Shown here: piece after piece, positions 32,442 to 61,319 of the stretch | Layout: each line of letters opens with the position of its first letter | Numbering within the stretch: the first letter of the stretch is position 1 | Origin: Chromobacterium haemolyticum | GTDB taxonomy: Bacteria; Pseudomonadota; Gammaproteobacteria; Burkholderiales; Chromobacteriaceae | NCBI RefSeq assembly: GCF_002081825.1 | Contig: NZ_MUKU01000030.1 | Coordinates: forward strand, 1-61,319 | Reading direction: 5' to 3' | Length of the DNA: 61,319 nt | Made by a program: the position numbers and the translations under genes | The notes under the pieces: generated by a model | What the model was told of the DNA's origin: nothing | The model's input: the letters and a program-made list of their open reading frames with translations, nothing else | Database searches by the model: none

Positions 32442-32575
32442 GCACTGTTTACGATCTGCTGCGCGCCTCGAGGCGTGACACGGTGAGTACAACGCTTCGC
32501 GAAACGCAGCAAACTATGAACAGGTTCTCAGCCGTTTTCGCCTTGTCTCGCTCTAGCAAGATCGTAAACCCGCTC
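32442..32575 (+). mobile_element. MITE copy 1 (134 bp, divergent middle)
   Basis: Left end GCACTGTTTACGATCTGCTG and right end AAGATCGTAAACCCGCTC are inverted copies of the family terminus. The right third (CAGCCGTTTTCGCCTTGTCT) matches the other copies, but the central 60 bases differ, so it is degenerate or chimeric. It begins at the base after the TAA stop of the histidine kinase gene. Flanks are TAA and TAG. From 32576 to 32747 nothing else is recognisable. Confidence 0.7.
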
Positions 32576-32747
32576 TAGAAGGATGCCGAAACGCTTTCGC
32601 CAGAACCGACGAAATGTAAAGCCGCAGTTTGTTAAGCAATCTGAATTGGGTCACGCGCCGTCACAAAGCGGGGACAGGAAGCCAACAGACCCAGGGCCGA
32701 GGCGCCGGGATAATGCCAGCATCTCAACTTGGATTCGGGTATTTTCC

Positions 32748-33569
32748 ATGGTTTCTTCACGACCGGCCGCCCTGCTGGTACACGGTCTGGGCGGCAGCGC
32801 ATACGACCTTGGCGCGCTTGGACGCACGCTGGAGGAGGCTGACATCGTCACGCACACCCCGCTGTTGCCGGGACATGGCGGCGAGCCGGAAGATCTGCTG
32901 TCCGTCCGCTGGCAGGACTGGGTGGAAACCATACGCAAGGAATACCTGGAGCTGAAGACGCGCCACAAGGTAGTGCATCTGGCCGGCGTTTGCCTGGGCG
33001 GCCTGGTGGCGCTGGAAGTGGCGCGGCTGGAAAACCACAAGGACGGCCTCGCGCTGTACGCGCCGCCGCTGTTCCTCGACGGCTGGAGCCTGCCCAAGCT
33101 CACTTGGGCGCGCCACATCGTCTACCGCATTCCCGGCCTGGCTAAAAAGATGCGCGTGCCGGAGGTGGAACCTTTCGGCATCAAGAACGCCCGCATCCGC
33201 AAAGCGATCCAGCAGCGCTTTGAACGCGGCGAGCGCTTCCACTACGCCTACATCCCGCTGGCCTGCATCCGCCAGGTGGATGGGCTGCGCCGCCAGCTGA
33301 TGTCGCGGCTGGAACAGATCACTTGTCCGACGCTGATCGTGCATGCCGACGAGGACGACATCACCAGCCCGCGCTCCGCCCATCACCTACAGCGCCACCT
33401 GGGCGGCAAGGTCGATTTCATGCCTTTGTCCAACAGCTACCATATGGTAATGGTGGACAATGAACGCGGCGAAGTGCTCAAGCGCAGCCTGAAGTTTTTC
33501 AACCAGCGCGCCCAAGCGCCGGCCACCACCGCCGAGCAAGACGGCTGGGCCCTGTTCGCCGCCGCCTGA
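32748..33569 (+). CDS. Alpha/beta hydrolase (carboxylesterase/lipase-like) with cysteine nucleophile
   Basis: This 273-residue alpha/beta hydrolase has the oxyanion motif LLVHGLGGSAYD at residue 9, the nucleophile elbow AGVCLGGLVALE with Cys82 where Est30-type esterases have serine, an acid residue in HADEDDITSP (about 204) and His232 in NSYHMVMVD. The C at the elbow (G-x-C-x-G) is like PHA synthases and dienelactone hydrolase. Overall it resembles Est30-type monoacylglycerol/carboxylesterases. ATG 32748 places the protein just before the first strand; the frame is open 165 bases further up, but that sequence is not protein-like. Substrate unknown. It is monocistronic with its own terminator. 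Confidence 0.82.
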   Translation: MVSSRPAALLVHGLGGSAYDLGALGRTLEEADIVTHTPLLPGHGGEPEDLLSVRWQDWVETIRKEYLELKTRHKVVHLAGVCLGGLVALEVARLENHKDGLALYAPPLFLDGWSLPKLTWARHIVYRIPGLAKKMRVPEVEPFGIKNARIRKAIQQRFERGERFHYAYIPLACIRQVDGLRRQLMSRLEQITCPTLIVHADEDDITSPRSAHHLQRHLGGKVDFMPLSNSYHMVMVDNERGEVLKRSLKFFNQRAQAPATTAEQDGWALFAAA

Positions 33570-33590
33570 ACGCCGCGCTCTTACAATCAA

Positions 33591-33615
33591 GGCAAGCTTC
33601 CCGCTTGCCTTTTTT
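33591..33615 (+). terminator. Rho-independent terminator after the hydrolase gene
   Basis: GGCAAGC-TTCCC-GCTTGCC, a perfect 7-bp stem, followed by six T residues, 21 bases past the stop codon. Confidence 0.92.
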
Positions 33616-33884
33616 CTTGCCTGCGCCAGCTGCGCCGGCCTCCTCGCCTTGAATTAAAGTTGCAAGCAATCACAACTGAACATTGAATTTAACAGCTACG
33701 CAAACTTCCAAGCCGCCTCGTCACCAACCGTCATCAAGCCAGAACACATCAACAATGGAAGGCAAGGACCAGCTGAAGCAAACTGTTTGCACGAGCCGGA
33801 TCGGCCCCCAGCCGGTCTTGCAACGGTTCCGTTCTCTTCCCTTTGTGTGACTTTGCGTGCCCGCCGGCTTCGGCGGGCATCTTT
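33616..33884 (+). ncRNA. Candidate small RNA or long leader, ending in its own terminator
   Basis: There is no open frame of note between the hydrolase terminator and the outer-membrane protein gene, yet a second terminator-like hairpin, GCCCGCCG-GCTT-CGGCGGGC (33859-33878) then ATCTTTTCTTTC, stands about 250 bases downstream of the first. An independent transcript ending there, or an attenuator in the omp leader, would explain it. The 5' end is not defined and no known RNA family was recognised. The coordinates are the outer limits. Confidence 0.3.
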
Positions 33885-34029
33885 TCTTTCAGCCGCCCAC
33901 CCTGTTTTGTTACAGATTGTTACACAAGCCCTTTACCCTTCACACAAAGAGCGCTTACAAGCTCAACAGACTGACTTGCTTCTTATTCGCACAATATCGC
34001 AGTTATCAACAAAGCAAACAGTCGCAAAA

Positions 34030-34620
34030 ATGAAAAAACTAATCACCGCTTCCGTGTTGAGCCTGGCAGCTCTGTCCGCGCATGCAGCCGATCCGGGCTT
34101 CTACGTCTTCGGCAACACTGGTTATAACTTCTCCAAGCCGGAGTCCGGCAACCGCAACATCGTCCTGAAAGAGGCCAAGGCCGCCGGCACGGTATGGGAA
34201 CTGGGCGCCGGTTACCGCTTCAACCAATATCTGGCTACCGAGCTGTCCTACGCTGACTTCGGCAAATCCACGGCCAACGGCTCCTTCAGCGGCCGCACCG
34301 GCAACGGCTCCGTCGCCACCAAGGCCGAACGCATCGCCGTGCTGGGCATCCTGCCGGTGACCCAGGATTTGGAAGTTTTCGGCAAGGCCAGCCTGAACAA
34401 CGTGCACACCAAGCTCAAGATCGACCGAGTTGCCAACAAAACTTTCAACGACACCCGATTGGGTCTTGGTTTCGGCGCGCAGTATCAGCTGCACAAAAAC
34501 CTGTCCTTGCGTGGCGAATACGAATACATCGCCGGCACTGACTTCCAGATGGCGGGCCAAAGCGTGGTCAAGACGTCCGGCACCAGCGTGCTGAAGGCCG
34601 GCATCAGCTACCACTTCTGA
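34030..34620 (+). CDS. Small outer-membrane beta-barrel protein (OmpA/OmpW-like fold)
   Basis: This 196-residue protein has a clear signal peptide (MKKLITASVLSLAALSAHA, cleavage before ADPGF). The mature part alternates polar and hydrophobic residues in about eight strands (VWELGAGYRFNQYLATELSYADF, LRGEYEYIAG), fitting an eight-stranded barrel, and ends in YHF, the C-terminal aromatic signal for BAM insertion. There is no periplasmic OmpA-C domain. Function unknown. The leader of about 410 bases holds a terminator-like hairpin at 33859. It is followed by its own terminator. Confidence 0.85.
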   Translation: MKKLITASVLSLAALSAHAADPGFYVFGNTGYNFSKPESGNRNIVLKEAKAAGTVWELGAGYRFNQYLATELSYADFGKSTANGSFSGRTGNGSVATKAERIAVLGILPVTQDLEVFGKASLNNVHTKLKIDRVANKTFNDTRLGLGFGAQYQLHKNLSLRGEYEYIAGTDFQMAGQSVVKTSGTSVLKAGISYHF

Positions 34621-36312
<1,692 letters not shown>

Positions 36313-36438
36313 GAGCCGAAGCCAAGCCGGATACCGCGTTTTCCCCAGCCCGCACATGAGTTTAGCCAATCACAAGAATGGCGAAATCGGGTATCCTTGC
36401 GCAGCTGCCCATAACAATCCCATGACCATCCGTTCCGC

Positions 36439-38109
36439 ATGAATCAACCCCATTTTTCGGCCGGGCTCTCCGGCCGCGCCGCCCGTCCCTGGCAGGAGCC
36501 GGCGCTATGGCTGCTGTTCGCCGTCGTCTGGTTCGGCACCCTCGGCTACCGCGGGCTGATTCACGCGGACGAAGGCCGCTACGCGACGCTGTCGCTGTTC
36601 ATGCTGCACAGCGGCGACTGGATCACTCCGCGACTGAACGGCCTGCTGTATTTCGAAAAACCGGCGCTGCAATACTGGATGGGCGCGCTAAGCTTCGCCG
36701 CCTTCGGCGTCAACGAGTTCGCCGCCCGCTTCTGGCCGGGCCTGACTGGCTTTCTGTCCGTGGCGATGTGCGGCTTCACCGCGCGCCGGCTCTGGGGCGT
36801 AGACGCCGGCCGCCACGCTGCGCTGGCCGCCGGCAGCTGCGCCTGGATCGTGGCCAATAGCCACTTCCTGTCGCTGGACATGGGGGTGAGCTTCTTCCTG
36901 ACCGTGGCGCTATGCGGCTTCCTGCTGGCACAACACGACGGCGCCGACGCCCGCGCGACCCGTAACTGGATGTGGGTCACCTGGGCGGCGATGGCCGCCG
37001 CCACGCTGAGCAAAGGCTTGATCGGCCTGCTGATTCCCGGCGCCACCCTAGTGCTGTACAGCCTGCTCAACTGGCAATGGGCATTCTGGAAACGCATGCA
37101 TTGGCTGAGCGGCCTGGCCTTGTTCCTGCTGTTGACCGCGCCGTGGTTCATTCTGGTGTCCCAGCGCAACCCGGACTTCGCCCATTTCTTCTTCATCCGC
37201 GAACACCTGGAACGCTTCCTCACCACCGAGCACAAACGCACCGGCGCGCCGTGGTATTTCGTGCCCTATCTGCTGCTTGGCTTGCTGCCTTGGACCAGCC
37301 TGCTGCCGACGCTGTGCCGCGACGGCTGGCGCGAACCTGGCGCGCGGCTGCGCGTCGGCCGCCTACTGCTGATCTGGTCGGTCTTTATCTTCGCCTTCTT
37401 CAGCAAGTCCAGCTCCAAGCTGCCATCCTACATCCTGCCGATGTTCCCGGCGCTGGCGTTGCTATTGGCGCCGACGTTGCAGCGCTTGCCCTCCGCCGCG
37501 CTGAAGAAGCACCTGCTGCCGGCGCTGCTACTGTGGCTGGCCGCGCTTGCTCTCTATCCCTTTGTTGATCGTTTCGCGTCCGAGGACATCCCGCTCGACG
37601 TACTGCACGGCTTCGCCCATTTCGTCGCTGCCGCCGCGCTGCTGTTCTTGGCCTGCGCCGTTGTCGCCTGGCGCTTGCTGGGCCGCGAACACAAGCTGGC
37701 CGCGCTGTGCTGGCTGGCTTTCGGCAGCTTGCTGGCCGTCAGCGTCGCCGCCGCCGGCCACGACAGCTATGGCCGGCTGAAGGGCAGCAAGGAAATCGTC
37801 CGCCAGATCCAGCCTTATCTCCATGCGGACACGCCGGTGTTCTCGGTCCGTTATTACGACCAGACTTTCCCCTTCTATCTGGGCCGCCCGGTCACCCTGG
37901 TGCAGTTTGTCGATGAGTTTGAATTCGGCGAGAGCCAGGAGCCGCAGCGCTGGATGCCGCGACTGGAACAATTCGTCGCCGCCTGGAACGCCGCCCCGCG
38001 CGCGCTGGCGATGACCGACCCCGCCACTTATCAGGAACTGCAAGCCCAGGGCCTGCCGATGCGGGTGGTCTACCAAGATCCGCGCCGCCTAGTGGTGGCC
38101 AAGCCGTGA
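36439..38109 (+). CDS. arnT: Lipid A 4-amino-4-deoxy-L-arabinose transferase ArnT
   Basis: This is a 556-residue GT-C glycosyltransferase with about 12 membrane segments. The first periplasmic loop bears the catalytic motif HADEGRYATLSLFML and GDWITPRLNGLLYFEKPALQYW, diagnostic of ArnT/PMT-family enzymes. It transfers aminoarabinose from undecaprenyl phosphate to lipid A, giving resistance to polymyxin and cationic peptides. It is the first gene of arnT-E-B-C-A1-A2-D; gene order differs from E. coli, where arnB leads. Confidence 0.95.
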   Translation: MNQPHFSAGLSGRAARPWQEPALWLLFAVVWFGTLGYRGLIHADEGRYATLSLFMLHSGDWITPRLNGLLYFEKPALQYWMGALSFAAFGVNEFAARFWPGLTGFLSVAMCGFTARRLWGVDAGRHAALAAGSCAWIVANSHFLSLDMGVSFFLTVALCGFLLAQHDGADARATRNWMWVTWAAMAAATLSKGLIGLLIPGATLVLYSLLNWQWAFWKRMHWLSGLALFLLLTAPWFILVSQRNPDFAHFFFIREHLERFLTTEHKRTGAPWYFVPYLLLGLLPWTSLLPTLCRDGWREPGARLRVGRLLLIWSVFIFAFFSKSSSKLPSYILPMFPALALLLAPTLQRLPSAALKKHLLPALLLWLAALALYPFVDRFASEDIPLDVLHGFAHFVAAAALLFLACAVVAWRLLGREHKLAALCWLAFGSLLAVSVAAAGHDSYGRLKGSKEIVRQIQPYLHADTPVFSVRYYDQTFPFYLGRPVTLVQFVDEFEFGESQEPQRWMPRLEQFVAAWNAAPRALAMTDPATYQELQAQGLPMRVVYQDPRRLVVAKP

Positions 38110-38137
38110 AACCGCCAACCTTTGGACCCGCTCTACT

Positions 38138-38509: not shown

Positions 38510-38523
38510 GCAGAAAGGCTAAA

Positions 38524-39651: not shown

Positions 39652-39658
39652 AACATCT

Positions 39659-40606: not shown

Positions 40607-41505
40607 AAGCCGTGGTCTTCGCTTATCACAATGTCGGCGTGCGCTGCCTGAGAGCGCTGATCGGCGGCGGCGTGGATGTGGCGCTGGTGGTCACCCACCG
40701 TGACAACCCCAATGAAAACATCTGGTTCGCCAGCGTGGAGCAGGTGGCCCGCGACTACGGCATACCAGTGATCACCCCGGACGACCCGAACACGCCGGAA
40801 GTGCTGGCCCAAGTGCAAGCGGTGCGGCCGGACTTCCTGTTCTCTTTCTATTACCGTCACATGCTCAAAGCCCCGCTGCTGGAATGCCCGGCGCGCGGCG
40901 CCTTCAATATGCATGGCTCGCTGCTGCCCAAATACCGCGGCCGGGTGCCGATCAACTGGGCCATCATCCATGGCGAAACCGAAACCGGCGCCACCCTGCA
41001 CGTGATGAACGTCAAGCCGGACAACGGCCCCCTCGTCGATCAGATGGCGGTGCCCATCTTGCCGGATGATAATGCCGACGAAGTGTTCGCCAAGGTCACC
41101 GTGGCCGCGGAAATGGTGCTGGCCCGCAGCCTGCCGGCGCTGCTTGCCGGCAAGGCCGAATTCCGCCAACAGGATTTGAGCCAAGGCGGCTATTTCGGCG
41201 GCCGCAAACCGGAGGATGGCCGCATTGACCCGCAAGCCGGCGCCGCCGATCTGCACAACTTCGTGCGCGCGCTGACCCACCCGTTCCCGGGCGCCTTCGC
41301 CGACATCGACGGCGGCCGGCTGGTAATCTGGAAAACCCTGCGCGCAGGCGGCCACGGTCAGCAATTGCAAACGGCCCGGCTACACTCAGAAAACGGCGCG
41401 CTGTGGCTGGACGCCGTGGACGGCGGCCGCTTGAAGGTACTATCCGCCACGCTGGACGGCGCGGCGCTGGATCCGGCGACAACACAGACGCTGACGCTGG
41501 CCTGA
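40603..41505 (+). CDS. arnA: UDP-L-Ara4N formyltransferase (stand-alone ArnA N-domain)
   Basis: This 300-residue protein matches only the N-terminal half of E. coli ArnA. It has the formyltransferase signatures NMHGSLLPKYRGRVPINWAI and HVMNVKPDNGPLVDQ, with the Asn/His/Asp catalytic set of 10-formyl-THF enzymes, and a C-terminal OB-like domain. It formylates UDP-Ara4N before transfer to lipid. In enterobacteria this domain is fused to the decarboxylase as one protein of about 660 residues; here a stop at 41505 and a new ribosome site separate the two. The reading frames are clean, so this is a true split rather than damage. Confidence 0.93.
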   Translation: MKAVVFAYHNVGVRCLRALIGGGVDVALVVTHRDNPNENIWFASVEQVARDYGIPVITPDDPNTPEVLAQVQAVRPDFLFSFYYRHMLKAPLLECPARGAFNMHGSLLPKYRGRVPINWAIIHGETETGATLHVMNVKPDNGPLVDQMAVPILPDDNADEVFAKVTVAAEMVLARSLPALLAGKAEFRQQDLSQGGYFGGRKPEDGRIDPQAGAADLHNFVRALTHPFPGAFADIDGGRLVIWKTLRAGGHGQQLQTARLHSENGALWLDAVDGGRLKVLSATLDGAALDPATTQTLTLA

Positions 41506-41573
41506 AGCGGCGCACTCACGGAATACACATGCAAATCACAGTCCCCCTCCAGGGGACGATGAAGGAAATCTCA

Positions 41574-42617
41574 ATGAAAAAAGTACTGATCCTCGGCGTC
41601 AACGGCTTTATTGGCCACCACCTGACCAAGCGCATCATCGAAACCACCGACTGGCACATCTACGGCATGGACATGCACGATGACCGCGTGACCGAGTGGA
41701 AAGACCACCCGCGCTTCCACTTCTTCGAAGGCGATATCACCATCAACAAGGAGTGGATCGAGTACCACGTGAAGAAATGCGACGTGGTGCTGCCGCTGGT
41801 GGCCATCGCCACTCCGTCCACCTATGTGAACAACCCGCTGCGCGTGTTCGAGCTGGACTTCGAAGCCAACCTGCCCATCGTTCGCCAGTGCGTGCAGTAC
41901 AAGAAACACCTGGTGTTCCCGTCCACCTCGGAAGTCTACGGCATGTGCCATGACGAAGAGTTCGATCCGGAGAACTCCGAGTTGATCTGCGGCCCGATCA
42001 ACAAGCCGCGCTGGATCTACTCCTGCTCCAAGCAGCTGATGGACCGCGTGATCCACGCCTACGGCATGCAAGAAGGCCTGAACTACACGCTGTTCCGTCC
42101 ATTCAACTGGATCGGCGGCGGACTGGACAACATCAATACCCCGAAAGAAGGCTCCAGCCGCGTGATCACCCAGTTCCTGGGCCATATCGTGCGCGGCGAG
42201 ACCATCAAGCTGGTGGACGGCGGCCATCAAAAACGCGCCTTCACCTATGTGGACGACGGCATCAGCGCTCTGATGAAGATCATCGAGAATAAAGACGGCA
42301 AGGCCTCCGGCCAGATCTACAACATCGGCAACCCAGCCAACAACTATTCCATCCGCGAACTGTCCGCGATGATGCTGGACCTGGCCCGCGTCTACCCGGA
42401 ATACCAACTGAACGCCGACAAGGTGAAGATCGAGGAAACCACGTCCGGCGCTTACTATGGCAAGGGCTATCAGGACGTGCAAAACCGCGTGCCCAAGATC
42501 GCCAACACCATGACGGACCTGGACTGGAAGCCGAGCGTGACCATGGCCGACGCGCTGCGCGGCATTTACGACTACTACCGCGACCAAGTGGCCGCCAGCC
42601 GCGACCTGTCCGAGTAA
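41574..42617 (+). CDS. UDP-glucuronic acid decarboxylase (stand-alone ArnA C-domain)
   Basis: This 347-residue short-chain dehydrogenase/epimerase protein has the NAD motif GVNGFIGHHL at residue 8, the catalytic YxxxK in IYSCSKQLMDR and the serine/glutamate region FPSTSEVYGM. It matches the C-terminal decarboxylase of ArnA, which oxidises and decarboxylates UDP-GlcA to UDP-Ara4O. GAAGGAA precedes ATG 41574; upstream in-frame ATGs exist at 41529 and 41559 but lack better sites. Its TAA stop directly abuts a MITE. Confidence 0.93.
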   Translation: MKKVLILGVNGFIGHHLTKRIIETTDWHIYGMDMHDDRVTEWKDHPRFHFFEGDITINKEWIEYHVKKCDVVLPLVAIATPSTYVNNPLRVFELDFEANLPIVRQCVQYKKHLVFPSTSEVYGMCHDEEFDPENSELICGPINKPRWIYSCSKQLMDRVIHAYGMQEGLNYTLFRPFNWIGGGLDNINTPKEGSSRVITQFLGHIVRGETIKLVDGGHQKRAFTYVDDGISALMKIIENKDGKASGQIYNIGNPANNYSIRELSAMMLDLARVYPEYQLNADKVKIEETTSGAYYGKGYQDVQNRVPKIANTMTDLDWKPSVTMADALRGIYDYYRDQVAASRDLSE

Positions 42618-42767
42618 GAATCTGTTAGCGATCTGCTGCGCGTCGGCTGGATGGATAGAGAAGGGCGTTGAAACCGGCTTCGAAATGCTCATGTACCACG
42701 CGGATATTCCGCTTTCCCAGCCGCAACGCCTTCTCTCGCCTTAGCTCGCGAGATCGTAAACAGGCTC
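42618..42767 (+). mobile_element. MITE copy 2 (150 bp) inside the arn operon
   Basis: Left terminus GAATCTGTTAGCGATCTGCT, right terminus GCGAGATCGTAAACAGGCTC (inverted). The inside matches copy 4 (53785-53934) closely, including GGATGGATAGA and GGGCGTTGAAACCGGCTTCG. It starts on the base after the decarboxylase TAA stop and ends 13 bases before the arnD ATG. Flanks are TAA (the stop codon) and TTA. Confidence 0.85.
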
Positions 42768-42780: not shown

Positions 42781-43680
42781 ATGAGAAAACTCGCTCTTAA
42801 AATCGACGTCGACACCTGGCGCGGCACCCGCGACGGCGTGCCGCGGCTGATGCACATGCTGCAGCAGCACCACGCCAAGGCCACCTTCTTGTTCAGCCTG
42901 GGCCCGGATCACACCGGCCGCGCGATCAAACGGGTATTCCGCCCCGGCTTCCTGTCCAAGGTGTCGCGCACCTCGGTGGTGGAACACTACGGCATCCGCA
43001 CCCTGCTGTACGGCACGGTGCTGCCCGGTCCCGACATCGGCAAGCGCGAAGCCGAGCTGATGCGCGAAGTGCGCTCGCAAGGCTTCGAAGTCGGCATCCA
43101 CACTTGGGATCACATCAAGTGGCAGGACTACGTCGCAAACAAGGACGCCGCCTGGACCCGCGCGGAAATGCGCAAGGCGGCCGAACGCTTTGAACAGATC
43201 TTCGGCGAACCGGCGCGCACCCACGGCGCCGCCGGCTGGCAGATCAACGATGCGGCGCTGGCCTATGAACGCGAGCTGGGCATGCTATACGCGTCCGACG
43301 GCCGCGGTACCCACCCGTTCCAGCCAGTGGACGCCGCCGGCCAGCCGCTGGGCGTGCCGCAATTGCCCACCACGCTGCCTACACTGGACGAGTTGATAGG
43401 CCTGGACGGACTTACCGCCGACAATGTTCATCACCATATTCTGGCGCTGACGGAAGAAGCCCCGGCCACCGGTCATGTCTACACGCTGCACGCCGAACTG
43501 GAAGGCCTGCGCCTGGGCTATACCTTCGAGCATCTGCTGGTGGGCTGGAAAGCCCAAGGCTACCAATTATGCAGCTGCATCGAGCTATTCAGCAGCCTGG
43601 ACACGGCCGCGCTGCCTGCCGGCCGCGTAGTGATGGGAGAGATTCCCGGCCGCAGCGGCACGCTGGCGCTGCAAGCCTAA
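42781..43680 (+). CDS. arnD: 4-deoxy-4-formamido-L-arabinose-phosphoundecaprenol deformylase
   Basis: This is a 299-residue polysaccharide-deacetylase (NodB) fold protein. The metal-binding and catalytic motifs are LKIDVDTWRGTRDG, GIHTWDHIKWQDY and RTHGAAGWQ. It removes the formyl group from the lipid-linked sugar before flipping. It is the last arn gene and is separated from the others by a MITE, which leaves only a weak GAGA ribosome site. Its own TAA stop is followed directly by another MITE. Confidence 0.94.
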   Translation: MRKLALKIDVDTWRGTRDGVPRLMHMLQQHHAKATFLFSLGPDHTGRAIKRVFRPGFLSKVSRTSVVEHYGIRTLLYGTVLPGPDIGKREAELMREVRSQGFEVGIHTWDHIKWQDYVANKDAAWTRAEMRKAAERFEQIFGEPARTHGAAGWQINDAALAYERELGMLYASDGRGTHPFQPVDAAGQPLGVPQLPTTLPTLDELIGLDGLTADNVHHHILALTEEAPATGHVYTLHAELEGLRLGYTFEHLLVGWKAQGYQLCSCIELFSSLDTAALPAGRVVMGEIPGRSGTLALQA

Positions 43681-43820
43681 GAACCTGTTTACGATCTGCT
43701 GCGCTGCGGCGATACGGCGTTGAAACCCGCTTCGAAATGCTCATGTACCACTGGTACCTTCCGCTTCCTCAGCGGTTTTCGCCTTGTCTCGCTCTTGCTC
43801 GCGAGAGCGTAAACACGTTC
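43681..43820 (+). mobile_element. MITE copy 3 (140 bp) after arnD
   Basis: It begins GAACCTGTTTACGATCTGCT on the base after the arnD TAA stop and ends GAGCGTAAACACGTTC, followed by TTA. The inside shares GCGATACGGCGTTGAAA and TCAGCGGTTTTCGCCTTGTC with copies 5 and 6. Confidence 0.85.
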
Positions 43821-43823
43821 TTA

Positions 43824-43847
43824 GCTCGCTAGATCGTAAACACATTC
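43824..43847 (+). repeat. Solo right end of the MITE family
   Basis: GCTCGCTAGATCGTAAACAC plus ATTC repeats the right terminus of the adjacent copy, following TTA and followed by TAG. It is probably the remnant of a second insertion or of recombination between copies. Confidence 0.65.
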
Positions 43848-53393: not shown

Positions 53394-53416
53394 TCACTGC
53401 CTAGCGAAAACCCTTA

Positions 53417-53781
53417 GAGCCTGTTCACGATCTTTCCGAGAGATGGCTCCAAGACATGGAATCCGCTGCGCGGATGATGATTTTCATTGCCGGGGCTGCC
53501 CGACGAGCAGGGAGGAGATATTTGCTTGGCCAAATATCCCCTCCACCCCCAAAGGCCACCCTGCAAGCCAGGCCTACGGCTTCCCGCCGGTTCCCGTCAG
53601 GTCCGAGGCGCGGCTGAACTCGCAGCGCGCTACCGTCGCGCGGCTCGAACAGGCAGCCGCTTAAGACCTCGGACCTGCCACCCGACGGCAGGCTTGAAGG
53701 GACCCGGGGCGCGTCGGATACGCTGCCTCCTGTGCAGAAAACCGTGTTTCAAAGCACAGACAAAAGATCGTAAACAGGTTC
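53417..53781 (+). mobile_element. 365-bp fold-back non-autonomous element with TTA target duplication
   Basis: The left end GAGCCTGTTCACGATCTTT equals the end of the IS5-family element at 61194; the right end AAGATCGTAAACAGGTTC is its inverted partner. TTA flanks both sides (53414-53416 and 53782-53784). The interior has no credible gene but is full of inverted repeats, including GGAGGAGATATTTG with CAAATATCCCCTCC (13 of 14 paired) and CAGGTCCGAGG with CCTCGGACCTG (perfect, 58 bases apart). Confidence 0.8.
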
Positions 53782-53784
53782 TTA

Positions 53785-53934
53785 GAACCTGTTTACGATC
53801 TGCTGCGCGCCGGCGGGATGGATAGATAAAGGGCGTTGAAACCGGCTTCGACATGCTCATGCACCGTATGACCACTCCACTCCTTAGCGGCAACGCCTTG
53901 TCTCGCCCTTGCTCGCGAGATCGTAAACAGGCTC
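53785..53934 (+). mobile_element. MITE copy 4 (150 bp)
   Basis: Ends GAACCTGTTTACGATCT and AGATCGTAAACAGGCTC are inverted, and TTA lies on both sides (53782-53784, 53935-53937). It shares the left TTA with the preceding 365-bp element, so the two stand back to back. The interior belongs to the 150-bp subfamily with copy 2. Nothing further is seen between 53938 and the collagenase start except its leader. Confidence 0.88.
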
Positions 53935-54069
53935 TTAGCCTGCTCCCCCGCGCCAGCCGCGGATTTGGCAAATCTGCGCGCGCGGACGCTCAAGCGCGCC
54001 AAGAAAGCCCGCTGTGCCATTGGCATGATCTCGCCATCAGGGACACGCCCTGACATACGGAGACAAGCC

Positions 54070-56319
54070 ATGCAGATCATTCCTCTCGCCGCGCTGAGCC
54101 TAAGCTTGGCCGCCGCCTTGCTGGCGCAGCCGGCGCTGGCCGCGCCCAAGCTGCAAAAAGCCCCCCACCAGGCGCAGGCCCGGCCGAAACAAGCGCCGCC
54201 GCCGCGACAATGGCAACAGCGTCCGCCAAGCGACGCGCAATCCCGCTACCGCTTGCCTGACGACCGCACCGTGATCGGCAAGCCCAAAAGCAAGCTGATC
54301 CGCCGCGCCGCCGTTGTGCAATGCCCGGACGTGAAAGCCATGGCCGGCTACAGCGGCGCGGCCCTGGCCAACTACCTGGCCGGCCTGCCCGACTACACCT
54401 GCACCTACGGCCTATTCTCCCTGGACAGCAAACTGGCCGCCACGCTCTACAGCGCGGCCAACCTCAACGCCGTCGCCGGACGCTTCGCCCAAGAGGCCGC
54501 GGCGTACAACGCCGGCTCCATGGCCCTGGTCAACCTCACCCTCTACCTGCGCGCCGGCTATTACCTGGCCAGCGGTGGCGCCCTGCCGGCGCTGGACCCC
54601 AATCTGCTCTCCGTGCTGCGCCCCGGCATCAAACAACTGGCCGACGGCAACGCACTATTCTCCGCCAACGCCCAGGCCTCCACGACCGCCGGCGAGGTGA
54701 TGAAGCTGATCACCAATATGGCGGACGAGGCTTACTACCTGCCCAGCATGCGCGCCATCGTGCAACGCTACACTAATAGCGCCGGCCAGCCCAACGCCGC
54801 CCAGGCCCTGCGCGAAACCACCGCCAGCCAGGGCTTCACCGGCGCGCTGACCGTGTTCTTCTACGCCCACGGCCGCGCCAACGCCGCGCCGCTGTTGCAG
54901 AATGACGGCAGCTACTCGGCGGCGCTGACCCGCTTCGCCCTGGCCAACAAGAGCGCCCTGCTCGGCACCGAAAGCGCCTTCCAGCTGGGCGACGCCACCC
55001 GCGAAGGGCTGCGCTTCATGCAATACCCGGCGCTGAAGCCCGCGATCAAACCCCAGGTCCAGGCCATTCTCTCCGGCAGCAGCATGACCGGCAACGACAA
55101 CGAGCTGTGGCTGGCCGCCGCCGAAGCGGTGAAGTATTACGACGCCGCCAGCTGCGCCGATTACGGCACCTGCGACTTCGAAACCCGGCTCGCCGACGCC
55201 ATCCTGGTCAATCGCTACACCTGCAGCGCCAGCATCCGCATCCGCTCCCAGGAAATGACCCTGGACCAGCTGCAGTCCTCCTGCGCGCTGCTGCAAAAAG
55301 AGGAGTCCTACTTCCACCAGATGCTGCAAACCCGCAAGCAGCCGGTGGCCAACGACAACAACACCTCGCTGGAAGTGGTGGTGTTCAACGATTACAACAA
55401 CTACGCCAAATACGCCTCCATCATCTACGGCATCAGCACCGACAACGGCGGCATGTATCTGGAAGGCGACCCGGCCGCGGCCGGCAACCAAGCGCGCTTC
55501 ATCGCTCACGAAGCCTCTTGGCTGCGCCCCACCTTCAAGGTCTGGAACCTGGAACACGAATACATCCACTATCTGGACGGCCGCTTCGACATGTACGGCG
55601 ATTTCGGCGCCAGCACCCGCCTGCCCACGGTATGGTGGATAGAAGGGCTGGCCGAATACCTGTCGCTGGGCAACGTCAACCAGCCGGCCATAGACGCCGC
55701 CCGCAGCGGCAACTACACGCTGAGCCAGATCTTCGGCAACACCTACGGCATGACGGACTACGTCACCCGCGCCTACCGCTGGGGCTATATGGCCACCCGC
55801 TTCATGATGGAACGCCACCGCGGCGATGTGGACGGCTTCCTCGCCCGCTTCCGCAGCGGCGATTACAACGGCTATCTCAATCAGATCCAGCAGATAGGCG
55901 CCCGCTACGACGCCGAATTCTCCAACTGGGCACAAAGCGCCACCACCGCAGGCCAACCGCCGCTGCCGTCGGACACCGGCCTGCCGCCGTGCAAGGAAGC
56001 CTCTCCCAGCTACCTGGGCAAGAACTGCTCCATCGGCGGTCTCTCCGCCTCCGCTTCCGGCGCGGCCTACGCCACCATCCTGCTGCCGGCCGGCGCGCGC
56101 AACCTCAAGCTGTGGACCAGCGGCGGCAGCGGCGACGTCGATCTCTACGTGGCGCTGGACCGCTACCCAACGCCCGGCAATTACGACTACGCGTCCGCCG
56201 CGACCGGCAACGAGGAAAGCGTGGCCATCGCCGCGCCGCAAGCCGGCCGCTGGTACTACCTGACGCTGCAGGCGCGCCAACCCTTCGCCAACGTCACGGT
56301 CAGCGCCAGCTACGATTAA
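54070..56319 (+). CDS. Secreted microbial collagenase (peptidase family M9)
   Basis: This 749-residue protein has a signal peptide (ALSLSLAAALLAQPALA) and a basic, Pro/Gln-rich propeptide-like stretch. An N-terminal activator-type region (about 90-400) precedes the metalloprotease domain with HEYIH (His496-Glu497-His500), YLDGRFDMYGDF and the third-ligand helix WWIEGLAEYLS. The C-terminus (about 650-749) is a pre-peptidase (PPC) domain (GDVDLYVALDRYP, WYYLTLQA) that often aids secretion or collagen binding. It resembles Vibrio-type ColA enzymes that cut native collagen and may act in tissue or cuticle breakdown. It is monocistronic, next to a MITE cluster. ATG 54070 starts the signal peptide. 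Confidence 0.92.
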   Translation: MQIIPLAALSLSLAAALLAQPALAAPKLQKAPHQAQARPKQAPPPRQWQQRPPSDAQSRYRLPDDRTVIGKPKSKLIRRAAVVQCPDVKAMAGYSGAALANYLAGLPDYTCTYGLFSLDSKLAATLYSAANLNAVAGRFAQEAAAYNAGSMALVNLTLYLRAGYYLASGGALPALDPNLLSVLRPGIKQLADGNALFSANAQASTTAGEVMKLITNMADEAYYLPSMRAIVQRYTNSAGQPNAAQALRETTASQGFTGALTVFFYAHGRANAAPLLQNDGSYSAALTRFALANKSALLGTESAFQLGDATREGLRFMQYPALKPAIKPQVQAILSGSSMTGNDNELWLAAAEAVKYYDAASCADYGTCDFETRLADAILVNRYTCSASIRIRSQEMTLDQLQSSCALLQKEESYFHQMLQTRKQPVANDNNTSLEVVVFNDYNNYAKYASIIYGISTDNGGMYLEGDPAAAGNQARFIAHEASWLRPTFKVWNLEHEYIHYLDGRFDMYGDFGASTRLPTVWWIEGLAEYLSLGNVNQPAIDAARSGNYTLSQIFGNTYGMTDYVTRAYRWGYMATRFMMERHRGDVDGFLARFRSGDYNGYLNQIQQIGARYDAEFSNWAQSATTAGQPPLPSDTGLPPCKEASPSYLGKNCSIGGLSASASGAAYATILLPAGARNLKLWTSGGSGDVDLYVALDRYPTPGNYDYASAATGNEESVAIAAPQAGRWYYLTLQARQPFANVTVSASYD

Positions 56320-56528
56320 GACCTGGTTCAAACCCTGGCGCCAAGCACGTCAACCCAAGCCGCCGCGGCCCGTCCGCGGCGGACTTGCAAAACGGGTTGA
56401 ATTAATGCATTTTGTTCTCAAACAATGATTAATGAATGACATGAAGATTAAATAGCCCGGTCCGCCGTCGGCGCCGGCTGTTTCTTTGGAGCTCAACACA
56501 CCGTAAACCGCTTATAAGGCCGCCCGCC

Positions 56529-57311
56529 ATGTCCATGCCGCCGCAACGCCCCTACATCGTCAGCGACCTGAACGCCATGCAGGCGATGGCCGTCTTGTTC
56601 GATCAGTTGCCCGACGTGGTGTTCGCGGTCAAAGACCTGGACAGCCGCTATCTGGCCTTGAGCGAGGGTTGCGTAGGCCGTTGCGCGCTGCGCAACAAAT
56701 GGCAGGCGGAAGGATTGACCGCGCACGAGTTGTTTCCCAACGCCATGGCCAACCGCTACCGCAGCCAGGATCTGCAAGTTTTCTCGGAGCGCCGGCCGGT
56801 GCGCAACCGGCTGGACCTCACCATCTACCACGACCGCGCACCCGGCTGGTGCCTGACCAACAAACAATCGCTGCACGCCCCTGACGGACGCTTGATCGGA
56901 TTGGTCTGCATTTCCAAGGATCTGACCGAACTGACTCGAGAGAAGCTGCTGGACGAACGCTTCGCCGCCTGCGTCGACCACATCCAGACCCATTACGACC
57001 GCCCCTTGCACCTGGAGGAATTGTGCGATCTGTCCGGCCTCAGCATCGGCCAGATGGACCGGCGCATGAAGCGGGTGTTCCAGGCCAGCGTAGGCGAATT
57101 CATCCGCCGCACCCGGATGGAAGCCGCCTGCCACGCCATCCAGCACAGCGGCCGGCCGCTGGCCGACATCGCCGCCAGCTGCGGCTTTTCCGATCAAAGC
57201 GCGCTAACCCGGCTGTGCCGGCAGATGTTCGGCCTCAGCCCGCGCCAATTGCGGCTGCGAACGCCACCCGCCTCGGCGACCATGGGCGAGGCCTGGGCGG
57301 CCAGCCCCTGA
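56529..57311 (+). CDS. PAS-domain AraC-family transcriptional regulator
   Basis: This is a 260-residue regulator with an N-terminal PAS-type sensor (about 18-135: LPDVVFAVKDLDSRYLALSE, WCLTNKQSLHAPDGRLIGLV) and a C-terminal AraC double HTH (about 155-245: HLEELCDLSGLSIGQMDRRM, ADIAASCGFSDQSALTRLCR). The PAS-AraC pairing suggests sensing of a small ligand or redox cue. It lies 209 bases after the collagenase on the same strand and could regulate it; that is inference. Confidence 0.9.
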   Translation: MSMPPQRPYIVSDLNAMQAMAVLFDQLPDVVFAVKDLDSRYLALSEGCVGRCALRNKWQAEGLTAHELFPNAMANRYRSQDLQVFSERRPVRNRLDLTIYHDRAPGWCLTNKQSLHAPDGRLIGLVCISKDLTELTREKLLDERFAACVDHIQTHYDRPLHLEELCDLSGLSIGQMDRRMKRVFQASVGEFIRRTRMEAACHAIQHSGRPLADIAASCGFSDQSALTRLCRQMFGLSPRQLRLRTPPASATMGEAWAASP

Positions 57312-57348
57312 CCAGGCCGTAACGCGGCTGACTGTGCACGGGTTCTCA

Positions 57349-57488
57349 GAGCCTGTTTACGATCTCGCGAGCTAAGGCGAGACAAGGAGAAAACGAGCGA
57401 AAAAGCGGAATGTACACGTGGCACATGAACATTTTGAGCTCGGTTTCAACGCCGTATCGCCGACGCGCAGCAGATCGTAAACAGGTTC
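57349..57488 (-). mobile_element. MITE copy 5 (140 bp, reverse orientation) with TCA duplication
   Basis: Ends GAGCCTGTTTACGATCTCGC and AGATCGTAAACAGGTTC, with TCA at both flanks (57346-57348 and 57489-57491). The right TCA is the stop codon (TGA, minus strand) of the tetR gene, so the element abuts that stop exactly. The interior is the reverse complement of copy 3. Confidence 0.9.
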
Positions 57489-58106
57489 TCAAGCCCCGCC
57501 CCGCCAGGCCGGCACCGTAGCCAGGCTCAGCCAGGCTCCGCGCAAAATGCGCTCGCAAGCCGCGAACGGCGCCTTGCCGCCGTCCATCATCCCGTACATG
57601 CCTTCGAACAGACGCACCAGGAACTCGGCGGCGATGCCCACCTCGATGTCCTGCGGCAGCTCTCCCTGGGCGATGGCGCGTCTCAGCTGCCGGCGCACAT
57701 AATGCATGGTGGCGCGATCCATCAGCTCGCGGCGGCGCAGGATGCCGCGGTTTTCCTCATTGCGCTCGCACTTGTGATACAGAAACTCCGTCACCCGCTG
57801 CGCCGGACCAGGCTCGTGGAACTGGCGCAGATAATACATGCCCACCGCCACCAGGGTTTCGCCCGCCGACGCCTGCTCCGCCGGGAAGCGCAACGCGTCC
57901 AGTTCGAACACGCGGTCCACCATGGCCCGGCACACCTCCATCTTATTGTCGTAGTGGCCATAGACCGCGCCGCGCGACACGCCGGCAGCATCGGCGATCT
58001 GCGCCATCGTGGCGTTGGCCACGCCTTGCAGCAGAAACACCCGCTCCGCGCCGTCCAGGATCGCCTCCCGGGTTTTTTGCGATTCTTCCTTGGTTTTCCT
58101 GGCCAT
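57489..58106 (-). CDS. TetR-family regulator (AcrR/TtgR-like)
   Basis: This is a 205-residue TetR protein with an N-terminal HTH (ATMAQIADAAGVSRGAVYGHYDNK, core within residues 32-55) and MARKTKEESQKTREAILDGAE-type start, as in AcrR and TtgR repressors of drug pumps. It is divergent from a MATE exporter 296 bases away, with a 30-bp palindrome in between, and probably represses it and itself. Its TGA stop forms part of the target duplication of a MITE. Confidence 0.9.
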   Translation of the reverse strand: MARKTKEESQKTREAILDGAERVFLLQGVANATMAQIADAAGVSRGAVYGHYDNKMEVCRAMVDRVFELDALRFPAEQASAGETLVAVGMYYLRQFHEPGPAQRVTEFLYHKCERNEENRGILRRRELMDRATMHYVRRQLRRAIAQGELPQDIEVGIAAEFLVRLFEGMYGMMDGGKAPFAACERILRGAWLSLATVPAWRGGA

Positions 58107-58144
58107 ATCCGCCTCTGAACTTTTCCCCAGATGCTACCTCAAAG

Positions 58145-58174
58145 AATTAATTAATCAACCGTGATTGATTAATT
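58145..58174. promoter_or_regulatory. 30-bp palindromic operator of the TetR regulator
   Basis: AATTAATTAATCA and TGATTGATTAATT form 13-bp arms with one mismatch around ACCG. The tetR -35 (TTGATT) lies within it on the minus strand. Size and position (39 bases from the tetR start) fit a TetR-type operator. Confidence 0.65.
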
Positions 58175-58249
58175 GAATGGACAACACTCGGCGCCGCCAA
58201 GGCAAGGCGCGCCGACCTGCCGTCCCTCGATCTTTTGAAACTTTTCTTA

Positions 58250-58389
58250 GAGTCTATTTACGACCTCGCGAGCAAGAGCGAGACAAGGCGAAAACGGCTG
58301 AGAAAGCGGAATGTACACGTGGTACATGAGCATTTCGAAGCGGTTTTCAACGCCGTATCGCCGCAGCGCAGCAGATCGTAAACAGACTC
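58250..58389 (-). mobile_element. MITE copy 6 (140 bp, reverse orientation) in the MATE leader
   Basis: Ends GAGTCTATTTACGACCTCGC and AGATCGTAAACAGACTC; the interior matches copy 5. TTA lies on the left; the right side reads TTTA, so the duplication has decayed or gained one base. It ends 13 bases before the MATE start codon. Confidence 0.85.
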
Positions 58390-58402
58390 TTTAGGTACTA
58401 CC

Positions 58403-59779
58403 ATGTCACACACAACAAGCAACCACCGCGACCTGGACACGTTGCCGGTGTCCAAACTGTTCTGGCAATACACCATTCCCTCCCTCGCCGGCATGCTGGC
58501 CACCGGCCTTTACGTGGTCATCGACGGCATCTTTGTCGGCCACTTCGTCGGCAGCCACGGCTTGGCGGCCATCGCGCTGGCCTATCCGCTGGTGATGATG
58601 CAAGTGGGCCTGGGCGCCATGCTGAGCATGGGCGCGGCCACCCGCATCGCCATCTTGCAAGGCGGCGGCGACTACGAGCGCGCGCGCGCCACCCTGGTGG
58701 CGGCGCTGGCGCTGCTGGCCCTGATCAGCCTGGCCATCCCGCTGCTGGGCCTCACGTATCTGGACACCCTGCTGCAATGGCTGCAAGCCGACAAGCAGCC
58801 TATCGTGATGGCGGAAGCCCGCAACTATCTGCAATGGATGCTGGGCGGCGCGCTGTTCACCATGGGTCAAATGGTGGCCACCTATCTGTTGCGCAACGAC
58901 GGCCGCCCGCGGCTGGCCACGCTGTTGATGGTGATAGGCTCGCTGCTCAACGTGGTCTTCAACTACCTGTTCGTCGGCGTGTTCAAGCTGGGCCTGGCCG
59001 GCTCGGCCCAGGCCACCTTGCTGTCCGAATCGGTGGTGATGCTGGCCGGCCTAGGCTACTTCTTCACCCGCCACGCGCGGCTGCGCCTGCGGCTGGCGAA
59101 CTTGCGGCTGGATTGGCGCTGCTGCGGCCCCGTTCTGGCCCTGGGCCTGTCCAGCCTGTTGATGGAGTTCAACCTGGCCTTGCTGATGTTCGCCCACAAC
59201 TTCCAGCTGCTGCGCTGGGGCACGGACCTGAGCGTGGCCGCCTACGCCACCGCCGGCTACAGCGAAGCCCTGTTCACCCTGGTAGTGCATGGGCTGGCGG
59301 TGGGCCTGCAGCCCTTGCTCAGCCACTCCACCGGCGCCGGCCGTCCGGAACGCACCCGCGAGGCGCTGCGCTACGGCCTGCGCGTCACCATGCTGCTGGG
59401 GTTCACCGCGCTGGCGGCGGTGCAGCTCTTCCCCACCCTGATCGTGCGCATGTACAACAGCGAAGACCTCGCGCTGATCGCCGCCGGCAGCCACGCGCTA
59501 CGCCTGCATTTGCTGGCCATGCCTTTCGATGGCTTGGTGATCATCGGCATCATCGCGCTGCAGGCGATGGCGATGACGCGGGCTGCGCTGCTGCTGACCA
59601 TAGGCAAGACCCTGCTGCTGCTGCCGGCCTTGTGGCTGTTGCCGCTGTGGCTGGCGCTGGACGGCGTCTGGCTGGCGATGCCGCTGGTCAACCTACTGCT
59701 GGGCTCGGCGGCCGCGCTGGCCTTGTGGGGCGCCTTCCGCCGCCTGAAACGTCAAGAGAACCTGGCAACCGCAGCCTGA
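58403..59779 (+). CDS. MATE-family multidrug/Na+ efflux transporter
   Basis: The 458-residue protein has 12 membrane segments in two six-helix halves. Its N-terminus LDTLPVSKLFWQYTIPSLAGMLATGLYVVIDGIFVG (core PSLAGMLATGLYVVIDG) is typical of the MepA/DinF-like MATE branch. It should exchange protons or sodium for cationic drugs. Its promoter region, with the TetR-type palindrome, is now separated from the start codon by a MITE, leaving only TTTAGG as ribosome site. A terminator follows. Confidence 0.92.
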   Translation: MSHTTSNHRDLDTLPVSKLFWQYTIPSLAGMLATGLYVVIDGIFVGHFVGSHGLAAIALAYPLVMMQVGLGAMLSMGAATRIAILQGGGDYERARATLVAALALLALISLAIPLLGLTYLDTLLQWLQADKQPIVMAEARNYLQWMLGGALFTMGQMVATYLLRNDGRPRLATLLMVIGSLLNVVFNYLFVGVFKLGLAGSAQATLLSESVVMLAGLGYFFTRHARLRLRLANLRLDWRCCGPVLALGLSSLLMEFNLALLMFAHNFQLLRWGTDLSVAAYATAGYSEALFTLVVHGLAVGLQPLLSHSTGAGRPERTREALRYGLRVTMLLGFTALAAVQLFPTLIVRMYNSEDLALIAAGSHALRLHLLAMPFDGLVIIGIIALQAMAMTRAALLLTIGKTLLLLPALWLLPLWLALDGVWLAMPLVNLLLGSAAALALWGAFRRLKRQENLATAA

Positions 59780-59798
59780 TCGCCACCGTTCTCAGCCA

Positions 59799-59825
59799 AT
59801 GGCCGGATTTCCGGCCATTTTTTTT
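59799..59825 (+). terminator. Rho-independent terminator after the MATE gene
   Basis: ATGGCCGG-ATTT-CCGGCCAT, a perfect 8-bp stem, followed by seven T residues. Confidence 0.93.
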
Positions 59826-60041
59826 AGGCATTGGCGAACCGGTTCCAATTGCCATTGTCTATATCCTTCGCGCGCGTATCGCACCTCCTTGCTCTCGCAT
59901 CCCGCGTCGGCTCCCGGCCGCCCCCGCATCTCGTCTTGTTTCGAGGTCGCGGGATCGCGGGCCGATTCGTATAGTGATAGCACCCGTCTGTTGGCGCCCC
60001 CGCCGCGGCTTGACTCCAACCTGTCAATAACAAGGAAAACA

Positions 60042-61121
60042 ATGTCTCTGAAAACCATTCCCCACTGGACCGTCGCCGCCCCGCTTGTCGCCTGGGCCGC
60101 AATCGTGGCCGCGCCCACCTTTGCCGCCTCCTCGCTCTTCCTCGCCCTGCTGGCGCTGCTGCTGGCCGGCACCGTCTTCGCCGCCGTCCACCACGCCGAA
60201 GTGGTGGCGCACAAGATGGGCGAGCCTTACGGCACGCTGATCCTGGCGCTGGCGGTGACGGTGATCGAAGTGGCCTTGATTGTCTCCTTCATGCTGGCCG
60301 GCGGAGAAAGCAAGCTGGCGCTGGCGCGCGACACCATCTTTTCCGCCATCATGATCACCTGCAACGGCATCGTCGGCATCTGCCTGCTGCTGGGCGGCCT
60401 GCGCCATCGCGAACAGAACTTCCAGCTCAGCGGCGCCAAAGTGGCGCTCACCGTGCTGGCCGCCATTTCGGTGCTGGCGCTGGTCTTGCCCAACTACGGC
60501 ACCAGCGAGCCCGGCCCGCTGCTATCCTCCTCGCAACTGGCCTTCACCGGCGTGGTGTCCCTGGTGCTGTACGGCGCCTTCGTCTTTGTGCAAACCATAC
60601 GTCACCGCGACTACTTCCTGCTGGAAGGCAGCCACAGCGAGGACGAACACGCGCCACCGCCGTCCGTCAAAGTGACGCTGATCAGCCTGGCCCTGCTGCT
60701 GGTTTGCCTGGTGGGCGTGGTCAGCCTGGCCAAGCTGCTGTCGCCGTCTATCGAAGGCTTCGTGGAAGCGGCCGGCGCGCCTGCCGCCGTGGTGGGCATC
60801 ATCATCGCCGCGCTGGTGCTACTGCCGGAAGGCCTGGCCGCCGCCAACGCCGCGCGCGCGGACCGAGTGCAGACCAGCCTCAACCTGGCGCTGGGTTCGG
60901 CGCTGGCCTCCATCGGCCTGACCATCCCCACCGTGGCGCTGATCTTCGTGGTGATGGGCGAGCCGCTGATTCTGGGCCTGGAAAACAAGGAAACCATCTT
61001 CCTGGTGCTGACCCTGCTGGTCAGTTCGATGTCGCTGGCCGTGGGCCGCACCACCATTTTGCAGGGCATCGTCCACCTGGTGATCTTCGCGTCCTTCGTG
61101 TTCTTCGCCATCAGTCCCTGA
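60042..61121 (+). CDS. chaA: Sodium-potassium/calcium:proton antiporter ChaA
   Basis: The 359-residue CaCA-family antiporter has about 11 membrane segments. The two alpha-repeat motifs are visible: AVTVIEVALIVSFMLAGG with GEPYGTLILAL before it, and ALVLLPEGLAAANAARADR with NLALGSALASIGLTIPTVAL. ChaA exports Na+, K+ and Ca2+ against protons at alkaline pH. ACAAGGAAA precedes ATG 60042; upstream in-frame codons are not protein-like. It is monocistronic with its own terminator. Confidence 0.94.
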   Translation: MSLKTIPHWTVAAPLVAWAAIVAAPTFAASSLFLALLALLLAGTVFAAVHHAEVVAHKMGEPYGTLILALAVTVIEVALIVSFMLAGGESKLALARDTIFSAIMITCNGIVGICLLLGGLRHREQNFQLSGAKVALTVLAAISVLALVLPNYGTSEPGPLLSSSQLAFTGVVSLVLYGAFVFVQTIRHRDYFLLEGSHSEDEHAPPPSVKVTLISLALLLVCLVGVVSLAKLLSPSIEGFVEAAGAPAAVVGIIIAALVLLPEGLAAANAARADRVQTSLNLALGSALASIGLTIPTVALIFVVMGEPLILGLENKETIFLVLTLLVSSMSLAVGRTTILQGIVHLVIFASFVFFAISP

Positions 61122-61139
61122 GCGTCCACACCGCGCAAA

Positions 61140-61175
61140 AAAACCGCCAACCGTTGCCGGCTGGCGGTTTTGTAT
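61140..61175 (+). terminator. Rho-independent terminator after chaA
   Basis: AAAACCGCCA and TGGCGGTTTT make a 10-bp stem with a 12-base loop; the A and T runs are part of the stem. Confidence 0.85.
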
Positions 61176-61193
61176 TGGCGGACCAGGTTCTCA

Positions 61194-61319
61194 GAGCCTG
61201 TTCACGATCTTTTCGTCCTGAGATAATTGCCGAATGCGAAGAAGCCATTATCCAAGCGACGTAAGTCGTGAACAGTTCGAACAGATCAGACCGCTATTGG
61301 AAAGCCTGCGCAAGAAAAC
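61194..61319 (+). mobile_element. IS5-family insertion sequence, left end (runs off right edge)
   Basis: It begins GAGCCTGTTCACGATCTTTT after TCA (61191-61193), the same terminus as the MITE family and the 365-bp element, and carries the start of a transposase. Only 126 bases are visible. Confidence 0.8.
61233..61319 (+). CDS. IS5-family transposase, N-terminal 29 codons only
   Basis: The frame reads MRRSHYPSDVSREQFEQI then RPLLESLRKK and is open to the window edge. The SHYPSD..Q...I.PLL pattern is the common N-terminus of IS5-family (IS1031/IS427-type) transposases. This protein, if intact, is the candidate enzyme that mobilises the MITEs in this window. Confidence 0.8.

Follow-up and report, generated by a model that had tools for sequence, protein, structure and literature searches.

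The subject of this work is a family of short repeated elements on contig NZ_MUKU01000030.1 of Chromobacterium haemolyticum; "the window" denotes the whole stretch of this contig that was analyzed, 61,319 nucleotides (nt) long. A preliminary description had listed six short elements and one of 365 bp to the right of 32.4 kb, all bounded by inverted copies of the sequence with which an insertion sequence (IS) of the IS5 family begins at the right edge of the window, and had interpreted them as miniature inverted-repeat transposable elements (MITEs) that fall into two subfamilies of about 150 and 140 bp. On re-checking, the positions of these elements proved correct and the two subfamilies real. 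In the list below, the hairpin core is the interior segment located with the covariance model described further on.

32441..32575 (no strand assigned): degraded mosaic element that has another type of end within it and no match to the core model
42618..42767 (-): element of the 150-bp subfamily; core 42657-42740 (-), 59.6 bits; its TAA is the stop codon of gene 41403-42617
43681..43820 (-): 140-bp element; core 43708-43793 (-); its TAA is the stop codon of gene 42781-43680; a partial second end follows directly at 43831-43847
53417..53781 (no strand assigned): 365-bp element with ends as in the short elements and an unrelated core of ~260 bp; it sits 3 bp (TTA) from the next element
53785..53934 (-): element of the 150-bp subfamily; core 53824-53907 (-), 38.5 bits; TTA on either side
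57349..57488 (+): 140-bp element; core 57376-57461 (+); its TCA duplication is the stop codon of gene 57489-58106 (-)
58250..58389 (+): 140-bp element; core 58277-58362 (+)
61194..61319 (+): left end and transposase start of an IS5-family IS of the NF033580 type, multi-copy, cut by the contig end

The inverted termini are indeed shared: the motif GARCCTGTTYACGATCT, searched with up to three mismatches, has 15 matches in the window, where 0.31 would be expected and none of 100 shuffles reaches 15. Five of the six short elements also match the core model, but the one at 32442, which had been counted with them, is no clean copy but a rearranged mosaic, with another element end inside it. Similarly, the 365-bp element belongs with the others by its ends but not by its core, which is also found elsewhere in core-only matches. 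This ~260-bp core is itself a repeat: the genome has another 24 strong matches (E<=1e-59), of which 14 are confined to the core; one core-only copy folds well (z-score -3.4), and it gave no match in plasmid records. The reported absence of elements from the first 32 kb holds in that no terminal match precedes 32.4 kb, but it is unremarkable, because the genome (5.29 Mb) contains 581 matches to the motif with a TNA flank (up to three mismatches; the reversed-pattern control gives two), which, with two ends each, imply about one element per 18 kb. Among 61 genomes of the bacterial family, the own genome included, the motif is patchy (two mismatches, both strands summed): more than 100 termini are present in 6 of the 19 genomes of the genus and at most 34 in the other 13, while more than 100 are also found in three genomes from two other genera (G035, G036 and G047).

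Identical triplets flank 55 of the 78 elements at the loci of the own genome (TTA 26, TAA 19, TGA 7, TCA 3), and comparison with related species yielded two empty sites. At 58250, C. haemolyticum, C. aquaticum and C. alkanivorans lack the element and retain a single TTA; the right junction in the window has one extra T relative to this empty site. C. haemolyticum also lacks the 365-bp element; there, a different short-element copy comes after the same TTA. One flanking protein matches C. alkanivorans at 99%, C. haemolyticum at 97% and C. aquaticum at 95% (nearer records may be left out). At 42618, 43681 and 57349 the relatives differ in complicated ways, and no clean empty site was found. In C. 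haemolyticum (L112, 6639-6785) a different short element occupies the exact site of the window's 53785 copy, which implies either two hits on the same TTA or replacement of the copy by conversion. At four loci (L016, L028, L053 and L066) short elements form tandem or near-tandem arrays, in which several are spaced by one TNA triplet. Insertion is thus evident from the TNA duplications and from two empty sites in related species, and the elements, which are short, devoid of a transposase and bounded by inverted ends common to an autonomous IS, fit the description of bacterial MITEs.

The IS at 61194 opens with the same terminal sequence as the short elements and is one of 14 left ends of this IS in the assembly. 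The concern that it might end differently on its other side is dispelled by the right ends, which lie on other contigs, carry the same ~20-bp repeat and read ...AAAAGATCGTGAACAGGCTC followed by TNA. Left and right ends both carry GAGCCTGTTCACGATCTTTT, and no single copy is assembled across both of them. At least 24 contig ends of the assembly fall inside IS of the IS5 family, and pieces of another transposase (DDE_Tnp_1) occupy the left contig edge of the window itself (1-812, minus strand). According to profile matches, the partner IS has a DDE transposase of the IS5 type: its pieces exceed the cut-offs for Pfam PF13340, PF13586 and PF01609 (IS4/5 and DDE transposase domains), and the pieces of the main IS protein score 92 and 63 bits against NCBIfam NF033580, below the whole-protein cut-off of 110, as expected of pieces. 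One piece from a related broken IS (L094) reaches 111.4 bits; the left end of this IS is of a variant type, GAACCTGTTCAAAGTCT, also seen on some short elements, and its right end is closer to the first type. The 24 readable IS ends, counted singly because the two ends of a copy lie on different contigs, are flanked by TTA (17), TCA (4) or TAA (3). A short TNA-type duplication is presumably a property of the IS1031-like group of the IS5 family. With the window's own IS as a doubtful case, 13 of these 24 ends by a loose rule, or 11 by a strict reading, lie 3 bp from an end of an element. Such adjacency would fit a preference for CTNAG (C precedes the target triplet in 54 of the 69 short copies in the own genome, and G follows it in 45), since an element that starts with G and ends with C remakes the target on both sides. 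Only the ends of ~17-20 bp are common to the IS and the element, and an origin of the interior from the resident IS by internal deletion was rejected on this ground. Run over 37 transposase loci, the core model gave one weak match (L256, 31.8 bits).

The interior of ~86 nt is a long imperfect hairpin, with z-scores of about -4 to -8 in four copies from the window and the own genome, of both the 140- and the 150-bp kind. The covariance model was built from an alignment of 10 sequences, which contains 93.9% standard pairs and double changes in 9 of 28 pairs (0 of 500 shuffles). Stacks and larger alignments took only clear core matches (41 loci in the stack; 40 and then 38 in alignment A3, without L185 and L190, which have a one-base offset; L063 was left out of A2, having had the wrong orientation in A1). 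When 38 genomes, represented by one locus each, are aligned without gaps, 97.4% of the pair cells are standard and 23 of 29 pairs have undergone compensatory (double) change, with 182 double-change cells versus 45.8 (0 of 500 shuffles); in slid controls pairing drops to 33-44%, and RNAalifold predicts a nearly identical fold. The internal unpaired columns (GA/GA, GSA/GA, a bulged A and AAC) are among the most constant, while the tip loop is variable. The fairest independent support for the structure comes from the own genome, because its copies were first found by blastn whereas the other loci were chosen with the structure model. In the 42 of 69 copies with exactly 86 nt between two anchors (35 distinct), own arms pair at 0.933, compared with a mean of 0.896 and a maximum of 0.912 for 1000 swaps of arms, and the internal loops near the tip are invariant in 42 of 42. 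Rfam 15 has no match on the elements: the scan of the window gives tRNA only, the segment 53300-58500 at E<=1 gives a partial tRNA and, weakly, BcKCsr7, neither of which lies on an element, and the scan of 18 loci gives sX9 only, off the element. This Xanthomonas small RNA was found at 478-553 of L169 (87.4 bits), ~1 kb from the element.

The preliminary description had treated the elements as a local family defined by their ends. Its link to an IS5-type transposon is right, as judged from the IS ends, the TNA duplications, the transposase pieces and the empty sites, but the conserved part is the hairpin core, which is spread far beyond Chromobacterium and Neisseriales and bears other ends elsewhere. 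With a threshold of E<=1e-3 per genome and at most 12 candidates scored in each, the core was detected in 142 of 369 sampled genomes of the host's class (115 of 272 genera). In an overlapping sample of the phylum (398 genomes, E<=1e-4), 79 genomes from 39 of 213 genera contained it; 45 of the 79 lie outside the class, where the best E-value was 2.8e-15. Of the 21 loci fetched from named organisms, three match the core model, those of Vogesella alkaliphila, V. indigofera and C. haemolyticum. Cores of a variant form, GAGCGTAC...GTACGTGAG, with other ends and different subterminal stems, are present at loci L185, L187, L189 and L190, which belong to four genomes outside the class (G498, G436, G457 and G456). 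One 140-bp copy has matches on plasmids of Halomonas sp. PA16-9, Pseudomonas veronii and Candidatus Fukatsuia symbiotica (the last one weak, E 3e-3), in which the interior is similar and the ends are unlike, although those of Fukatsuia resemble type B (see below); the 53785 copy has no match in plasmid records. Plasmids were rejected as the main carriers, since two queries hit 3 and 2 of 72,556 records, and so were phages, for which two queries hit none of 50,697 records; four viral contigs contain one exact pattern and none contains a second.

These distributions bear on one alternative, namely that we are dealing with an ordinary MITE family in which only the ends matter, and the palindromic interior is junk that looks alike owing to recent amplification and to intrastrand correction of its arms. 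Palindromes can convert their own arms, and the patchy bursts of termini within the genus are what such a family would produce. Nonetheless, we find this explanation improbable, for the same interior recurs in 115 of the 272 sampled genera of the class with unlike ends, and the GA/GA and GSA/GA mismatches and the bulged A, which correction between the arms should remove, are instead among the most conserved columns.

When 41 loci are stacked on the core, the information content is 1.15 bits per column in the core (a figure inflated by the selection of cores with the model), 0.42 in adjacent columns and 0.10 outside. Eighty of the 102 loci with a core could be assigned to ten end types, and the typed elements are mostly 139-143 bp long. 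Target duplications are mostly TNA for types A, B and F, and CTAG, TTAA or mixtures for type C. Defining the family by its ends, as the MITE of one transposase lineage, fails, because one core is combined with ten end types recognized by eye. In genome G765, identical 80-nt cores have A ends at L212 and B ends at L214 and L217. Cores 0.94 similar have A versus C ends (L176, L167). Untyped loci aside, G601 has six elements with C ends and one with E ends, an unlike type; the corresponding counts are three F and one G in G717, three C and one A in G671, and three A and one B in G475. Two IS with convincing ends may represent partners of such elements. In G601, an IS (L258) has ends matching type E with 1 and 3 mismatches and encodes a transposase of NF033581 (251 bits), a different IS5 subgroup from that of the IS in the window; L259, an IS of G765 that is bounded by G ends, encodes NF033580 pieces. 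We infer that the ends have been exchanged by recombination.

Alternatively, the end types could be a single lineage that has drifted gradually together with its IS5-family partner, with no exchange of modules. The ends A, B and F do look distantly alike, A and B differ at few positions, and the partner transposases found all belong to the IS5 family. This scenario seems improbable to us, as the ends CAGGCYGTTGAAAAA, TCCTACTGTGTCACAA and GGGYGCCTCTAWAAA are unlike A, mostly accompany other target duplications, and are found on cores up to 0.94 similar to those of type A or beside other ends in one genome; it is weakened by the same-genome cases of mixed ends.

The elements also use stop codons more often than expected. 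In the own genome, 33 of the 69 short copies directly abut a stop codon and none is called inside a gene, a test that frame-breaking insertions would mostly escape. The stop codon is itself the target triplet in 29 of the 56 copies usable for this comparison, as opposed to 14.4 expected if all intergenic TNA sites are equal and 18.1 if they are weighted by the flanking bases learned from the same copies (0 of 20000 simulations). For other genomes, the comparison took 30 typed loci flanked by 900 bases or more on either side; in 13 of the 30 the element terminates a frame of 100 codons or longer, compared with 35 of 355 control sites, and in two of the 13 (L166, L171) the stop is completed by the first base of the element and may be new. 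A looser count, made without a control, places 50 of 80 typed loci at a stop. The strand bearing the GA loops is antisense to the stopped gene in 27 own copies versus 6, and in 10 versus 3 in the 30 other genomes, while the own copies away from stops have no such bias in their triplet (TAA 11, TTA 11). The bias recurs with several end types, so its probable source is the core rather than a single transposase.

Docking at stops, the strong fold (z-scores of about -4 to -8) and the orientation relative to the stopped gene would also be accounted for by a hairpin in the 3' untranslated region (UTR) that is selected by the host and, once transcribed, stabilizes or terminates the upstream mRNA, as proposed for REP-type repeats. 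We consider this possible but unlikely: the strand with the GA loops is in most cases absent from the mRNA, two of the insertions are polymorphic between close species, and no terminator U-run is visible by eye in the window copies, for which a dedicated terminator scan was not run. On the same inspection, the element was rejected as an intrinsic terminator.

We are fairly confident that these elements are modular non-autonomous transposons of ~140 bp, with ends of the IS5 type, a conserved hairpin core, other ends elsewhere, and a habit of docking at stop codons. The outermost inverted repeats of ~17 bp would fit the resident IS5-family transposase, which is the presumed agent that moves the element in trans into TNA sites. 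Inside them, the ~86-nt hairpin core would be kept by compensatory changes, with its internal loops nearly fixed, and it would be the conserved unit, carried elsewhere by other end types with TNA or YTAR duplications. A TAA or TGA stop is itself a TNA site, and TAA and TAG lie within YTAR; where the stop is the target site, insertion would duplicate it and leave the protein intact. The most probable role of the core is that of a folded strand acting in cis, whether RNA or single-stranded DNA (the two versions are alike compatible with the data), and may aid either the spread of the element or its tolerance near genes. We lean, though only slightly, towards the more specific picture of a guest hairpin, conserved in many proteobacterial genera and absent from Rfam, that wears the ends of whichever IS5-type transposon is active, remains at ~140 bp and docks at stops with a fixed strand bias, the folded core being the unit under selection.

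Several points weigh against this interpretation. The gene calls are our own crude predictions, the controls for the 30 other genomes include coding sites, and the excess at stop codons may be partly a survivor bias; the mostly antisense placement of the GA-loop strand speaks against a simple 3'-UTR hairpin of that strand. Most loci from other genomes were picked by the 10-sequence structure model, which inflates both the conservation of the core and the wobble pairs. Outside one column pair the own copies have 26 G-U and 31 A-C oppositions, so that selection at the RNA level is unsupported, and the 76 G-U versus 45 A-C in the other genomes come from copies mostly chosen with the RNA model; the assignment of a strand from wobble pairs was dropped for these reasons. 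The end types were set by eye and matched with up to four mismatches, types I and J have a single example each, 22 of the 102 loci are untyped and eight more have no recognizable core, and the A and B ends on the identical cores of G765 are similar, differing at few positions. As to the partners, L258 has no clear target duplication, and the G ends of L259 match elements in other genomes, none of the seven loci of G765 being of type G, so that L259 shows only that such an IS exists. The two IS are all that had convincing ends among 30 transposase loci from 9 of 13 genomes; the other four genomes searched had no match to that transposase family. This thin evidence for the partners lowers our confidence slightly.

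MITEs are usually defined by their ends, with the interior regarded as disposable, whereas here it appears that the interior is kept by selection and the ends are exchanged. With compensatory mutants, the role of a MITE interior becomes directly testable. An element supported by covariation, absent from Rfam 15, is found in 142 of 369 sampled genomes of a bacterial class, and docking at stop codons would explain in a simple way why a genome might tolerate copies by the hundred.

As to earlier descriptions, no paper in the PMC collection searched contains any of six 14-17-base words of the core, and none combines "Chromobacterium" with "miniature inverted-repeat transposable"; the element may have been described elsewhere, as ISfinder and subscription papers lie outside this search. 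A shared core with exchanged ends is not described in the pertinent passages of a 2024 review of MITEs (PMC10969869) or of three reports on individual families (PMC5896051, PMC2718517, PMC3189936).

Known systems resemble the present one in part. The REP/BIME sequences associated with RAYT are palindromes of 20-40 nt linked to a Y1 transposase, from which the present elements differ in size, inverted ends and target duplications. The ERIC sequences are imperfect palindromes over their whole length, and the Correia/NEMIS elements of Neisseria have ends and a target other than those of the present elements. A search of 20,395 E. coli records with a C-type copy of the core gave no match. The QMITE2 elements of Coxiella burnetii, as outlined in the passages available, have a stem conserved in distant bacteria, occur mostly in 3' untranslated regions and are a hotspot for IS (PMC5896051, PMC10969869); they differ in length (~190 bp), in direct repeats of 7-9 bp and in the insertions of IS1111, and neither covariation nor exchange of ends is described in those passages (PMC5896051). 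In Pseudomonas syringae, MITEPsy1 with ISPsy2, filed as "IS5?", was shown to move and uses a CTAG or YTAA target (PMC3189936); from what the report gives, it is set apart by its length of 100 nt and its ends GGAAGGTCTGAAAAAGCC, while the ends of ISPsy19, GAGGGTGTAGACAAAAT, resemble our type F (PMC3189936). The R0, R2, R178 and R200 repeats of P. fluorescens are MITE-like hairpins with a tail-repeat-tail bias, the ends of R0 and R2 matching an IS (PMC2718517); R178 is 101 bp long, and since these repeats are known here by description, any of them may equal the present core (PMC2718517). The ERIC elements, or intergenic repeat units, of Enterobacteria (127 bp) are non-autonomous, mostly intergenic and present in a high, variable number of copies (PMC10969869, PMC2759123), and in these respects they are like the present elements; they differ in that we met no report, within the portions cited, of ends exchanged between transposase types. 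The Correia/NEMIS elements, whose transcripts are cut by RNase III and which affect neighboring genes (PMC10969869), are, in the outline given there, short MITEs like the elements studied here, in a related group of bacteria.

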